A stretch of 31,899 nt of DNA from a virus: the IMG/VR virus record IMGVR_UViG_3300034019_000257, positions 1 to 31,899 of that record; one strand, 5' to 3'. Of this stretch, positions 1,913 through 19,470 are shown one piece after another (the first letter of the stretch is position 1; each line of letters opens with the position of its first letter). The notes beneath the pieces are model-generated. The model ran no database searches and was not told the origin of the DNA. It saw only the letters and a program-made list of their open reading frames with translations. A program made the position numbers and the translations under genes.

Positions 1913-2836
1913 ATGGCTTATGACGCTTTCGGAAATTTTGTCCCTGACACCTCACCAGGCCAAGGTGCTTTACCCGCACCCCTAGGAACCTCGTCTGGCG
2001 CGTCAAGAATTGACCCCGCGCTTAGTCCATACTTGCAGATGGGGCTACAACGCGCCCAGCAATTGTTCTTTGGCGCACAGCCTCAGATGTTCCAAGGGCA
2101 GACCTATGTCTCCCCATCGGCGCAAACAGAACAAGCCCTAGCCCAACAAGAGGCTCTGGCCACCGGAGCGCAACCAACCCTGCAAGCCGCACAACAAGCC
2201 TACCAATCCTCCTTGGGGCAGATTGGGCAGACCGCCGCAGGTGGGTTCTTGCAAGGCAACCCGTACCAACAGGCAATGCTTGCCGCCGCTACCCGCCCGC
2301 TTACACAACAGTACGGTGAGCAGGTCGTTCCGGGCATTGCAAGCCTCTACTCACGCGCTGGTCGCTACGGGTCAGGAGCAATGGAGCGTGCCCTTGGCGG
2401 GGCTACGGAAGCCTACGGAAGGGCATTAGGAGACGTTTCTGCCAATATCGTTGGACAGGACTACGCCCGCGAGCGCGGACTGCAACAACAGGCTCAATTA
2501 AGCCAAGCAGCCCTAGCACAAGCCGCACCTTCGTTCTTTCAGATGGGATTCTTGCCATCTCAGGCTTTGGCACAGGTTGGCGCAGCCCGCGAGCAGATTG
2601 CTGGACAGCCCTTGCAAGAGGCAATGCAGAGATTCCAATACTCGCAACAGTTACCGTATCAGCAGTTACAGGGGTTCTTGTCGTCTGTCTACGGTACGCC
2701 AATGGCGCAGTCGGCAATTCCGCAACAACAGACAAATCGCACCCTACAAAACTTAGGTATTGCAACCACAATCGGCGGTCTAATCCCAGAGGCAACTCGC
2801 CAAAGGGCGTTTGACTACGTTGCAGGATTGTTCTAA
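1913..2836 (+). CDS. Gln/Ala-rich internal virion (ejection-type) protein
   Basis: 307 aa, preceded by AGGTGAT at a suitable distance. Composition is dominated by Gln and Ala (QQEALATGAQPTLQAAQQAY), with long predicted helices and no membrane segment or enzyme motif. The GRYGSGAMERALGGATEAYG stretch and QQLPYQQLQGFLSSVYGTP near the C-terminus resemble small ejection or injection proteins of P22-like environmental phages. The place, between the hub and two more Ala-rich proteins, matches P22 genes 7-20-16, whose products leave the capsid with the DNA. The role is inferred from position and composition; a tail or head completion protein is possible. Confidence 0.5.
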   Translation: MAYDAFGNFVPDTSPGQGALPAPLGTSSGASRIDPALSPYLQMGLQRAQQLFFGAQPQMFQGQTYVSPSAQTEQALAQQEALATGAQPTLQAAQQAYQSSLGQIGQTAAGGFLQGNPYQQAMLAAATRPLTQQYGEQVVPGIASLYSRAGRYGSGAMERALGGATEAYGRALGDVSANIVGQDYARERGLQQQAQLSQAALAQAAPSFFQMGFLPSQALAQVGAAREQIAGQPLQEAMQRFQYSQQLPYQQLQGFLSSVYGTPMAQSAIPQQQTNRTLQNLGIATTIGGLIPEATRQRAFDYVAGLF

Positions 2837-2839
2837 CCA

Positions 2840-4333
2840 ATGGCAGCCGAACAGAACCCATTACTTATTAGCAGGGTCATTCCTTGGGTAAACCCCTATG
2901 AGTACATCGTAAACACAAATCAGGGTGATTTTGTTTATGTGCCGCAAGACGTAGTAAACAAGGGGTATGTAAAAGAAGAAAATGCTGGCTTCATACAAAA
3001 CGCCGACGGAACATTTGGGATTAAAAAAGAGAAAAGGCAATACTTTCACCCAGAGTTATTAAAACAAGATTTGTTGAGCTCGGCTGGGCGCATAAAGATA
3101 GACGAGAACCTTTTTACAGACGCTCAAAAAAGCGAGATGTCTAGTCTTGTTGGCAAGGATATAAATACCGGCTATTTGTTCCCTGCTGTTAAATACTTTG
3201 AGACCGTAAAACCAGACCCATACTATTACACGCTCGATGAGGACAGCCCCCCAATATCTGGGGTTAGTTCCCTTTCCAATCAGGGTGTTGGTGGTACTGC
3301 CTTTGACTCTGGGTACAAATATATTTTAGGCACGCCAACTTCAAATAATTTTGATTTTATTAACCCAGACGCAAGCATTAACACGCTCACCACAACCTAT
3401 ACCCCGCCAAAAAAGAGGGGCGGGATTCTGGGTAGTGCCGCAAGAAGTATTGTTGGCGCAATTGCTGACATTCCGTTTCTTCCAGAAATTGCTGCTTTTG
3501 CAACAGGGAGTCCGGTCTTATACGGCTCACTAAAGGCAGCACAAACCGCAGCTGCTGGTGGCGACATAGAAGACACAATTAAAAGCGGCGTAGTTAGTGG
3601 TGGAACTATGTGGCTTGGGCAACAGGTATTAGGCCCAGTAGACGCAACCGCAGGTGGGGTAGAGCCTGGCGTTGGGGTAGAGGTATACCCAGTAGACGCT
3701 GGCGTAACGCCGGACATTACATCTATTCCAGGCGGGTCAGCGACACCAATTCCATCGGAAATAAGTTTGCTTGGTAACACCCCACCACCGTCACAAACAA
3801 TAACAGGAACATTACCTCCGCTGCCATCAGAAAGTGCTTTAGGAACCCAGCCGGTAGATTATTCGACAGGAATACAAACTACACCTGGCGTTAGTGGTGG
3901 TGAAGGTTTGCAACAACCGACAATGCCAAATGTAGGTGGTTTGGGTGGGGCACAGGGTAGCACAGTACCAGTTGAAGGTGGAACGGTAGGACAATTAGGA
4001 ACCACGCCAACAGGCGCAACCCCTGTTCTTGGAAGTCCTGGTTCGTTCATTAACGACCCAAGCGTCTTGGGGACAGATGTAATACCACAAGGAACGCCAA
4101 GCACTATTTCTCTGGGTGATGCTAGTCGTGCTTTAAGGTTGGCTAATAACCTGTTAAATCCAGCACAAGCTGGTGGTGAGGGTGGTGTTGACCAAGGTGG
4201 CGCACAACAGTCAATGGGTGGCGTGGATTACTCTGGCTTGTATAACCTACTTGCACAACGCGCCATTGCCGGTGGATTACTCGGCACTCGGTATCAACCG
4301 CAACCCGTCAATCTTGCTAGTCTTTTAGGATAA
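2840..4333 (+). CDS. Virion-associated protein of unknown function, Gly/Pro/Thr-rich C-terminal half
   Basis: 497 aa. I do not recognise a family. Residues 1-190 are a mixed, more AT-rich N-terminal part with many Lys and aromatic residues. About residues 195-260 form an Ala/Gly-rich amphipathic helical segment (IPFLPEIAAFATGSP, then AAQTAAAGGDIEDTIKSG). The rest is low-complexity Gly/Pro/Thr/Val sequence ending in a helical tail rich in Leu and Gln. The gene lies 3 bases after the upstream stop and 4 bases before the next start, in the same block as the ejection-type proteins, so a second internal virion protein is the best guess. Codon use is visibly more AT-rich than in its neighbours. Confidence 0.45.
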   Translation: MAAEQNPLLISRVIPWVNPYEYIVNTNQGDFVYVPQDVVNKGYVKEENAGFIQNADGTFGIKKEKRQYFHPELLKQDLLSSAGRIKIDENLFTDAQKSEMSSLVGKDINTGYLFPAVKYFETVKPDPYYYTLDEDSPPISGVSSLSNQGVGGTAFDSGYKYILGTPTSNNFDFINPDASINTLTTTYTPPKKRGGILGSAARSIVGAIADIPFLPEIAAFATGSPVLYGSLKAAQTAAAGGDIEDTIKSGVVSGGTMWLGQQVLGPVDATAGGVEPGVGVEVYPVDAGVTPDITSIPGGSATPIPSEISLLGNTPPPSQTITGTLPPLPSESALGTQPVDYSTGIQTTPGVSGGEGLQQPTMPNVGGLGGAQGSTVPVEGGTVGQLGTTPTGATPVLGSPGSFINDPSVLGTDVIPQGTPSTISLGDASRALRLANNLLNPAQAGGEGGVDQGGAQQSMGGVDYSGLYNLLAQRAIAGGLLGTRYQPQPVNLASLLG

Positions 4334-16347: not shown

Positions 16348-16643
16348 TTATTCCCTACCGGTAAAGTTTTGCCCAAAAGACGGTATACATCCTCTAATAA
16401 TTCCTGTTCGGTAAATCCGTAGTGCTTTGGGAAGCCTTTGGTTCCGAGTCCGTGAACTCCAGTTTTACCTCTGTGGTGTTCTGGGCATAGTGGTATTGCA
16501 AGGTAGTGCGAAGACCTGCCCCATCCTTGACCGGCCCGCAGATGATGAATTTCAGACGGGCTATCAGAGTACCCAATTCTTCGGCAGACCACGCATCCGA
16601 GGGCTGCAACTTTAGAGAGATGGTTTTTTTCATCTTTGGTCAC
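16344..16643 (-). CDS. Ref/DUF968-like HNH nuclease
   Basis: 99 aa from a GTG start. The pattern CVVC (17-20), EIHHLRAGQGWGRSSHY, IPLCPEHHRG, then GVHGLGTKGFPKHYG is that of the DUF968/Ref group, whose P1 member Ref is a RecA-dependent HNH nuclease. Cys and His residues bind zinc and form the active site. It overlaps Dcm by 14 bases and lies directly against the stop of the frame overlapping Dcm. It is likely a recombination helper. Confidence 0.78.
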   Translation of the reverse strand: MTKDEKNHLSKVAALGCVVCRRIGYSDSPSEIHHLRAGQGWGRSSHYLAIPLCPEHHRGKTGVHGLGTKGFPKHYGFTEQELLEDVYRLLGKTLPVGNK

Positions 16644-17403
16644 TCAAGATTTCCCATGCAGCCGCAGCCACTCTCGGAACTTGTCCATTTCCAATGGCCG
16701 CAATTCTGTCCACCCCATCGGCCACCCCATCACTATTTCGCCGCATGATGGGTCTGGAATCAAAGTTTTGTCCTCCCCCCCCCCAAGTCGGAGGTGTTGT
16801 TCCGTCATCTCCCACCATAAAATTGACCCAACTTTCACCCCGCTGGTTCGTTTTCCATCGTTTAATACTTTTGCTTTGGCGCTCGACCAATAACTGAAAA
16901 GATTTTTTGTTGGTGTAGGCAACAATCCAGATTCGTTCTCTCCTATGTTGCCCGCCGAAGTCGTCATGTCCCAACACCCCCCATTCCGCATCAAACCCCA
17001 TCTTGGCCAAGTCTCCGAGAACTCGTCCAAGTCCCCTAGAAGTGAGCATTGGTGAGTTTTCCACGAAGACGAATCTGGGTCGTACTTCGTGAATGATGCG
17101 TGCCATTTCTCGCCACATTCCTGAACGCTCTGCATCAATTCCTGCGCCCTTTCCTGCGGCTGATATGTCCTGGCATGGAAACCCGCCAGATATGACATCA
17201 ACAATTCCTTGCCACGGCTTTCCGTCAAAGGTTTGTACGTCATCCCAAACCGGGAAAGGCGGGAGAAATCCGTCATTTTGTCTGGCGCACAGTACGCTTG
17301 CTGGGTATGGCTCCCATTCAACTGCACAGACGGTTCTCCATCCGAGGAGATGTCCCCCAAGTATTCCTCCACCAGCACCTGCGAAAAGAGCCAACTCATT
17401 CAT
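16630..17403 (-). CDS. dcm: Dcm-type DNA (cytosine-5) methyltransferase
   Basis: 257 aa. All key C5-methyltransferase motifs are present in order: I (LALFAGAGGGILGG), IV (GGFPCQDIS with catalytic Cys77), VI (FVFVENS, Glu115), VIII (QHRRERIW, 152-159) and X (AIGNGQVPRVAAAAWEIL). The stretch for target recognition, about 165-225, is short, so the enzyme is at the small end of the family. It methylates cytosine in phage or host DNA, most simply as defence against restriction. The start overlaps the upstream stop (ATGA). A run of ten G lies in the coding strand between motifs VIII and X, and a second frame is open across almost the whole gene. Confidence 0.9.
   Translation of the reverse strand: MNELALFAGAGGGILGGHLLGWRTVCAVEWEPYPASVLCARQNDGFLPPFPVWDDVQTFDGKPWQGIVDVISGGFPCQDISAAGKGAGIDAERSGMWREMARIIHEVRPRFVFVENSPMLTSRGLGRVLGDLAKMGFDAEWGVLGHDDFGGQHRRERIWIVAYTNKKSFQLLVERQSKSIKRWKTNQRGESWVNFMVGDDGTTPPTWGGGGQNFDSRPIMRRNSDGVADGVDRIAAIGNGQVPRVAAAAWEILSDQR
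16644..17399 (-). CDS. Open +1 frame covering Dcm: possible overprinted gene
   Basis: 251 codons without a stop, same strand as Dcm, starting at an ATG 4 bases after the Dcm ATG and ending in a TGA directly before the GTG of the next gene. It reads MSWLFSQVLVEEYLGDISSD, has PDSSSWKTHQCSLLGDLDEF and ETWPRWGLMRNGGCWD, and ends MGWPMGWTELRPLEMDKFRE. I recall closely similar proteins deposited from other phages and prophages, which may be a real family or repeated annotation of the shadow of conserved Dcm motifs. It lacks methyltransferase motifs of its own. Reported as a candidate only. Confidence 0.3.
   Translation of the reverse strand: MSWLFSQVLVEEYLGDISSDGEPSVQLNGSHTQQAYCAPDKMTDFSRLSRFGMTYKPLTESRGKELLMSYLAGFHARTYQPQERAQELMQSVQECGEKWHASFTKYDPDSSSWKTHQCSLLGDLDEFSETWPRWGLMRNGGCWDMTTSAGNIGENESGLLPTPTKNLFSYWSSAKAKVLNDGKRTSGVKVGSILWWEMTEQHLRLGGGEDKTLIPDPSCGEIVMGWPMGWTELRPLEMDKFREWLRLHGKS
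16775..16784. repeat. C10/G10 homopolymer tract inside dcm
   Basis: Ten C on the plus strand (ten G in the dcm coding strand) lie between motifs VIII and X. Tracts of this length are prone to slippage by DNA or RNA polymerase. A one-base loss joins the Dcm N-terminal part to the overlapping frame; a one-base gain joins the overlapping frame to the Dcm C-terminal part. It may also be a sequencing-error site. Confidence 0.85.
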
Positions 17404-19040: not shown

Positions 19041-19349
19041 TTAGTTAAGTTCAACCAATTTTATTGTCCAACCCGCCTTTAGTTTCCCCCACCCGTGGAC
19101 ATGGACTTTCCACCCTGACCGAACCAGCTCTGGGAAATACTCGTTTTCCTGTATTTTCTTGACCCGCGCTGCAACATTCCCCCTGCTGGTGGTCTGCACC
19201 CCTATGGTCTCCCCGTTGCCCACCGCCAGGATGTCTATACAGTTCCACAGGTCTATCCGCTTGCGGGAATAGGGACACCACCTCTCCACAATCCAGCACC
19301 GGTAGCCTTGGTCGCGTAGGTACTTGAGGCTTCTTTGGGTAGGGGACAT
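19041..19349 (-). CDS. PD-(D/E)XK / VRR-NUC-like protein with altered ExK site
   Basis: 102 aa. SPTQRSLKYLRDQGYRCWIV, Glu22 in the next strand, then NCIDILAVGNGETIGVQTTS and a C-terminal HVHGWGKL resemble small phage VRR-NUC/Holliday-resolvase-like proteins. Asp39 sits where the metal-binding Asp is expected, but the ExK strand reads Gln52-Thr-Thr. Either the site is rearranged or the protein is not catalytic. The gene stands alone, facing left, between the divergent control region and the long terminator. A poor ribosome site precedes its ATG. Confidence 0.6.
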   Translation of the reverse strand: MSPTQRSLKYLRDQGYRCWIVERWCPYSRKRIDLWNCIDILAVGNGETIGVQTTSRGNVAARVKKIQENEYFPELVRSGWKVHVHGWGKLKAGWTIKLVELN

Positions 19350-19470
19350 TCTTACATTCTACTGTATAACCATACATTAGGGTTAGTCCCTAGTAGATTT
19401 CTTATACAACCCTTAAAAATGGTGTAAGATTCTGTTCATGGCATCCCGCCATACACGCCGAGGAGGGCAC
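19350..19470. promoter_or_regulatory. Divergent control region between leftward and rightward early genes
   Basis: This is the only head-to-head gene junction in the window. Two operator-like palindromes are seen: TAGGG/CCCTA at 19378-19392 (loop TTAGT) and ATGGC/GCCAT at 19438-19452 (loop ATCCC). For rightward transcription TAAGAT at 19425-19430 is a candidate -10, but its -35 match is poor. For leftward transcription TATACA and TAGAAT elements lie at about 19354-19366. AGGAGGG serves the first rightward gene. Exact promoters are uncertain. Confidence 0.45.

Follow-up and report, generated by a model that had tools for sequence, protein, structure and literature searches.

The window, i.e. 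the whole stretch of DNA analysed here, is an IMG/VR virus record of 31,899 bases. Its dcm gene lies on the minus strand in a recombination/replication cluster that includes a RecE/YqaJ-type exonuclease and a NinB-like mediator. The original prediction described a second frame of 251 codons, here called X, in the +1 frame of dcm, running from an ATG 4 nt downstream of the Dcm ATG (ATGAATGAG) to a TGA (16644-16646) that directly abuts the GTG (16641-16643) of the gene for a Ref-like nuclease; the coordinates confirmed this arrangement. It also held that the Dcm frame itself is intact, and that similar frames exist in other phages. Both points were borne out, the former by Pfam (PF00145, E 6e-32) and the latter by homologue searches. 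The features of the locus are listed below.

16630..17403, minus strand: dcm (alpha), an annotated-type Dcm, the catalytic C5 cytosine methyltransferase polypeptide; 257 aa with motifs I-VIII and X, without motif IX
16644..17399 including the stop codon, minus strand: X (beta), the proposed target-recognition subunit; 251 aa in the +1 frame of dcm, matching phrog_1008 (E 2.8e-13)
17397..17399, minus strand: start codon of X, an ATG lying 4 nt into dcm and found at all 123 homologous loci
16923..17399, minus strand: X residues 1-159, opposite Dcm motifs I-VIII; constraint on both frames
16740..16922, minus strand: the one (L)PTP cassette in X (residues 160-220), proposed to be the target recognition module; the Dcm frame opposite is an unconserved linker
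16710..16739, minus strand: motif-IX-like core of X, EIVMGWPMGW, residues 221-230; assigned from near-invariant residues and single-chain enzymes
16669..16695, minus strand: Dcm motif X, IGNGQVPRV; in relatives it sits in the Dcm frame, opposite or after X
16933..16950, minus strand: Dcm motif VIII, QHRRER, the final catalytic motif ahead of the linker; assigned by inspection and the match to M.HhaI
16775..16784, minus strand: G10 tract (C10 on the plus strand) within the dcm/X overlap; a one-base slip would shift both frames

Elsewhere in the window, two long frames of 102 and 108 codons (19041-19349 and 19051-19377, minus strand) also overlap each other on the same strand.

The original prediction left undecided whether X is a true gene or a shadow of dcm, and proposed two sequence-based checks beforehand: stop codons in homologues, and constraint at synonymous sites. 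We compared X with shuffled versions of the window dcm that preserve the Dcm protein and its codon usage. The 20,000 synonymous shuffles carried a mean of 5.85 X-frame stops, and none of them was free of stops; the +2 frame of the window dcm has 18 stops. The same approach applied to 122 distinct homologous genes gave about 650 expected internal stops in the +1 frame, of which only 1 was observed, with no depletion in the +2 frame (1963 observed versus 1624 expected). Counts summed over homologues are inflated by relatedness, and we therefore checked ascertainment and divergence. X was open in all 52 distinct loci that had first been retrieved with the Dcm query alone. In addition, the X frame and its C-terminal motif were present in the Dcm homologues of a Porphyromonas phage, mycobacteriophage XFactor and MW202627, which came from the Dcm search at 32-42% identity and are absent among the X matches listed.

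The X protein is also conserved in its own right. Mean column identity of X was 0.500, compared with 0.282±0.001 for the synonymous shuffles, and across residues 1-159, taken region by region, conservation was 0.49-0.80 against a null of 0.35-0.46. Conversely, the Dcm frame is constrained where its protein sequence would leave it free: differences at four-fold sites in Dcm codons 1-158 were 0.21-0.27, versus 0.46-0.68 when five neighbouring genes were compared in the same genome pairs. The latter comparison would be weaker if dcm had been exchanged among phages later than its neighbours. The homologues, moreover, are phylogenetically dependent and many of them are metagenomic contigs. Both of the proposed checks thus came out in favour of a gene, with stop depletion, X conservation and four-fold constraint all in agreement, and we conclude that X is a real, conserved protein-coding gene. 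Two metagenomic loci carry a nonsense codon in one of the frames: in L133 it falls in Dcm and X is intact, and in L016 the reverse is the case.

The start codon of X is steadier than that of Dcm. X keeps its ATG in every one of the 123 loci; the aligned Dcm start varies between ATG, GTG, TTG or no start codon at all, in which case Dcm starts a few codons upstream. The overlap with the X ATG forces the second codon of Dcm to be AAT, as found in 104 of 104 cases. Six loci (L004, L005, L085, L106, L115 and L132) have the order of the two starts reversed, X starting at an ATG that precedes the Dcm ATG by 5 nt (ATGACATGG or ATGTCATGG).

The two frames do not share the coding evenly along the overlap. 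Opposite Dcm codons 1-158 both are conserved, and differences at the three Dcm codon positions were 0.13/0.07/0.27. The central part of X is made up of 1-4 swappable cassettes, each about 30-60 residues long and beginning with (W/L/F/Y)PTP; cassette families recur across loci at differing positions and in differing numbers, and X of the window has one cassette. In 559 cross-locus cassette pairs identity was 0.72 in the X frame, but only 0.40 in the Dcm frame and 0.41 in the third frame. Differences within cassettes were concentrated at the third positions of X codons (0.23/0.20/0.51 by X codon position). This pattern, together with the identities, indicates that the Dcm frame is merely a stop-free linker here; the cassettes are modular and code only in X. 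In the final stretch (X EIVMGWPMGW / Dcm motif X) an X-like pattern was seen again, with 0.25/0.13/0.15 at Dcm positions. The description of X as overprinted on dcm therefore stands as far as the reality of the gene is concerned, but is incomplete, because in the middle third it is X that codes and the Dcm frame opposite is an unconserved linker.

We noted that the motifs of a C5 methyltransferase are divided between the two frames. The Pfam match of the Dcm frame spans only residues 4-182, and the profile of Dcm homologues aligns to M.HhaI through motif VIII, where the match ends. The catalytic motifs I, IV (PCQ), VI (ENS) and VIII are present in order, and motif X (AIGNGQVPRVA) was recognized by inspection. 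Between VIII and X, however, nothing in the Dcm frame matches the target recognition domain (TRD) and motif IX, so the Dcm frame, with motifs I-VIII and X, does not meet the criterion for a complete single-chain C5 methyltransferase, which has the TRD and motif IX in that position. A motif-IX-like segment missing from the Dcm frame, NPxWVEWLMGWPxGW, is found at the C terminus of X, where E221, M224, G225, P227 and W230 are nearly invariant. Its position and pattern, and the single-chain relatives described below, are the basis on which this segment is put forward as a possible homologue of motif IX.

Database comparisons placed X in a family but did not assign it a role. X matches phrog_1008 with E values from 2.8e-13 (window) to 2e-84 (relatives); by this profile match PHROG 1008 (annotated 'DNA methyltransferase', category other) is the same family as X, but the entry gives only the family name and category and is silent on a subunit role or an overlap. 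Nothing significant was found for X in Pfam, NCBIfam or PADLOC. Searches of Pfam, PHROG and solved-structure profiles detected no relative of known function for the N-terminal 159 residues, and profile searches with X or with the C terminus of the mycobacteriophage Ramsey enzyme gave no significant match to a solved methyltransferase. AlphaFold modelled X with low confidence (mean pLDDT 52, pTM 0.22; 99-row alignment). This low score is uninformative about X, since the model of alpha failed as well (pLDDT 46).

The position of the X modules within a methyltransferase can be read from mycobacteriophages. In Ramsey gp69 and Nimbo gp63, motifs I-VIII share one frame with four LLPTP-type cassettes, EWMMGWPAGW and motif X (GNGVCPQQA); the tandem LLPTP cassettes followed by EWMMGWPAGW resemble the window, but everything, motif X included, is in a single reading frame, unlike in the window. 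Blue7 (gp92/gp91) and Firecracker (gp6/gp5) have these parts split: their catalytic frame ends past motif VIII, and an overlapping frame carries the cassettes, EWMMG and motif X. X of the window matches Firecracker gp5 (E 1e-5), the C-terminal half of gp5 aligns to the C terminus of Ramsey gp69 (E 5e-27), and the X proteins and the Ramsey C terminus all match phrog_1008. This comparison places the X cassettes at the position of the target recognition domain and (E/D)WLMGxPxGW at that of motif IX.

Several individual relatives depart from the common layout. In Rhodococcus phage ReT1v-2 (L153) a single-chain Dcm with its own motifs IX and X (2263-3465) is overlapped by an X-like frame (2561-3235) that has PTP cassettes but lacks motif IX. 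This suggests either that the frames have switched in the past or that the N-terminal part of X has a role of its own; in this phage that part may be to some extent a shadow, or serve another function. In Paraburkholderia adhaesiva (L303) the Dcm frame ends past motif VIII and the X frame of 505 aa ends with motif X, a placement indicating that an AquI-like split arose in this lineage too. The dcm of the E. coli PCP07014 prophage (L340, 2501-3262) carries an internal stop and is called a pseudogene in the annotation; the same few bases stop both frames. A mycobacteriophage methylase gene has been described in which a ShiLan-domain HNH insertion is hidden while the methylase frame is kept open (PMC11855218). 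The case is like X in that a phage C5 methyltransferase gene conceals a second protein in a different frame, and unlike it in that the protein is an inserted homing HNH endonuclease in the third frame; the X frame was not considered in the consulted passages of that account. ShiLan gp70 (L171) is the same kind of methylase gene, and its cassette region is also an open linker.

To see how far the arrangement extends, diverse sequences were scanned for the X motif pattern. An IMG/VR scan with this pattern only returned 80 diverse loci, and in all 80 X was in the +1 frame of an overlapping Dcm; motif X was in the Dcm frame, eight loci failing the strict pattern only. Among 80 loci from GTDB genomes, spanning many bacterial phyla and archaea, the +1 overlap was again present in 80 of 80. 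The pattern found motif X in the Dcm frame in 71 of these, and in the P. adhaesiva locus it has moved to the X frame. No standalone X gene without a Dcm frame was found in the 160 viral and cellular loci in which it was sought. Records usually list one of the two proteins: only Dcm in Salmonella and E. coli, only X in Pseudomonas phage phPA-G, Stenotrophomonas phage SOVA965 and mycobacteriophage XFactor, and both in the split mycobacteriophage forms. The dcm/X arrangement occurs in hundreds of phages, bacteria and archaea, usually with just one protein annotated. Hundreds of small phage and prophage 'Dcm' genes are apparently annotated as one protein where the DNA encodes two.

The G10 tract is the sole homopolymer of at least 8 in the window. 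G/C tracts of at least 10 numbered 8 in 98 kb of dcm homologues, as against 1 in 723 kb of flanking sequence, and they fall at four different sites. Other loci with tracts in the overlap are L151, L142, L114 and L087 (G11), L149 and L006 (G10) and L124 (C10). As a slip of one base would shift both frames together, phase variation is possible, and the dcm/X locus may be phase-variable through poly-G/C slippage.

The most likely reading of these results is that X serves as the target-recognition subunit in a C5 methyltransferase made of two intertwined polypeptides. We regard it as highly probable that one stretch of DNA encodes both halves of the enzyme, with the Dcm frame catalytic and X carrying the cassettes and the motif-IX-like segment. 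A single mRNA would give both alpha and X, from start codons separated by 4 nt, translation of X being predicted to start independently at its own ATG. Alpha would supply SAM binding, catalysis and motif X, and the C-terminal half of X would supply one or more target-recognition cassettes and the motif-IX-like segment that alpha lacks. The two would then be expected to assemble and methylate phage DNA at sites determined by the cassettes, and such methylation would probably protect it against host restriction. Coding, conservation, modularity and the complementarity of motifs are established by the sequence comparisons, whereas assembly, activity, target choice and protection are inferred, without expression or activity data behind the two-subunit reading.

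An untranslated X, held open by the conserved motifs of Dcm and by codon bias, is scarcely credible, although Dcm is strongly conserved opposite X residues 1-159 and X-like stretches persist opposite some single-chain Dcm genes. The shuffles predict 5.85 stops in the window and about 650 in the 122 genes, where 0 and 1 were observed; conservation of X exceeds the shuffle null; the X frame codes precisely where Dcm is not conserved; and the ATG of X is steadier than the Dcm start. These results would leave room for it only if all of them were artefacts of recent common ancestry, and against this stands the finding of one layout in all 80 diverse viral loci and all 80 cellular ones. We reject a shadow ORF on the strength of stop depletion, X conservation, cassette coding and four-fold constraint.

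X might instead be a real overprinted gene with a function apart from methylation, e.g. in anti-restriction or regulation, as the lack of any detectable relative of known function for its first 159 residues would allow. This appears unlikely, given that the modules in the C-terminal part of X have their homologues in the VIII-to-X segment of single-chain and split methyltransferases, and that this very segment is missing from the Dcm frame in the window and in its close relatives. Programmed ribosomal frameshifting, which would fuse the Dcm frame to X without X having a start of its own, could yield a full enzyme by one shift in Firecracker and Blue7, where the Dcm frame ends past motif VIII and the overlapping frame holds the rest. 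In the window, however, motif X is again read in the Dcm frame, so that one shift would have to be followed by a second in the opposite direction; moreover, a shift near the cassette requires neither an ATG in 123 of 123 loci nor residues 1-159 conserved as protein. We consider frameshifting even less plausible than a separate function.

If the two-polypeptide reading is correct, the Dcm frame does not reveal the methylation specificity, constructs cloned with a single frame would lack activity, and the specificity subunit is missed by standard genome pipelines. The locus is also an unusually clear case of a long overlap in which the division of labour can be tested: constraint falls on both frames at one end and on one alone in the middle, and recombination of the cassettes must leave the opposite frame open. 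More tentatively, and with more doubt than confidence, we suggest a very widespread class of C5 methyltransferases in phages, bacteria and archaea, in which a catalytic subunit is paired, on one DNA segment, with a modular, multi-cassette specificity subunit in the +1 frame that recombines like a type I S subunit, and in some members of which poly-G tracts in the overlap could turn both subunits on and off simultaneously.

A literature search found no description of phage overlaps in dcm. Among known systems, the small gene of M.EcoHK31I lies within the large gene in a different frame, and M.EaeI is a related case; dcm/X shares this overlap of the small gene with the large one in a second frame. 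M.EcoHK31I is a two-polypeptide C5 methyltransferase with motif IX alone on the small polypeptide (NAR 1995, cited in PMC3404938) and the recognition domain predicted on the large subunit (PMC3404938). The large polypeptide carries motifs I-VIII and X, as the Dcm frame of the window does. The IX-like segment of X, placed where single-chain relatives have motif IX, may correspond to the motif IX of the small polypeptide, but it has no significant match to a solved methyltransferase. Methylation by that type requires both polypeptides, which for dcm/X is a prediction. Judged from published descriptions rather than from a direct sequence comparison, dcm/X differs in its nearly complete overlap (X begins 4 nt inside dcm) and in its 1-4 swappable cassettes, and in that the cassette region codes in X and not in the Dcm frame. 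We do not, therefore, file dcm/X as a member of the M.EcoHK31I type, for which prediction puts the recognition domain on the large polypeptide.

In M.AquI, catalytic motifs I-VIII are on one polypeptide and the distal recognition region and motif IX are on the other (PMC3404938). This division is the one seen in dcm/X, except that motif X is on the small subunit of M.AquI and stays in the Dcm frame in the window. Firecracker gp6/gp5 and Blue7 gp92/gp91 are AquI-like. The multispecific methyltransferases of Bacillus phages SPR, phi3T and rho11 are single chains in which the interval from motif VIII to motif IX holds several short recognition modules that can be interchanged, each recognising a different site. 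X resembles them in having interchangeable modules in the recognition region, with 1-4 cassettes and the same cassette at different positions; in contrast to these single-chain enzymes, the modules of X, whose site specificity is inferred, lie in a second, overlapping frame.
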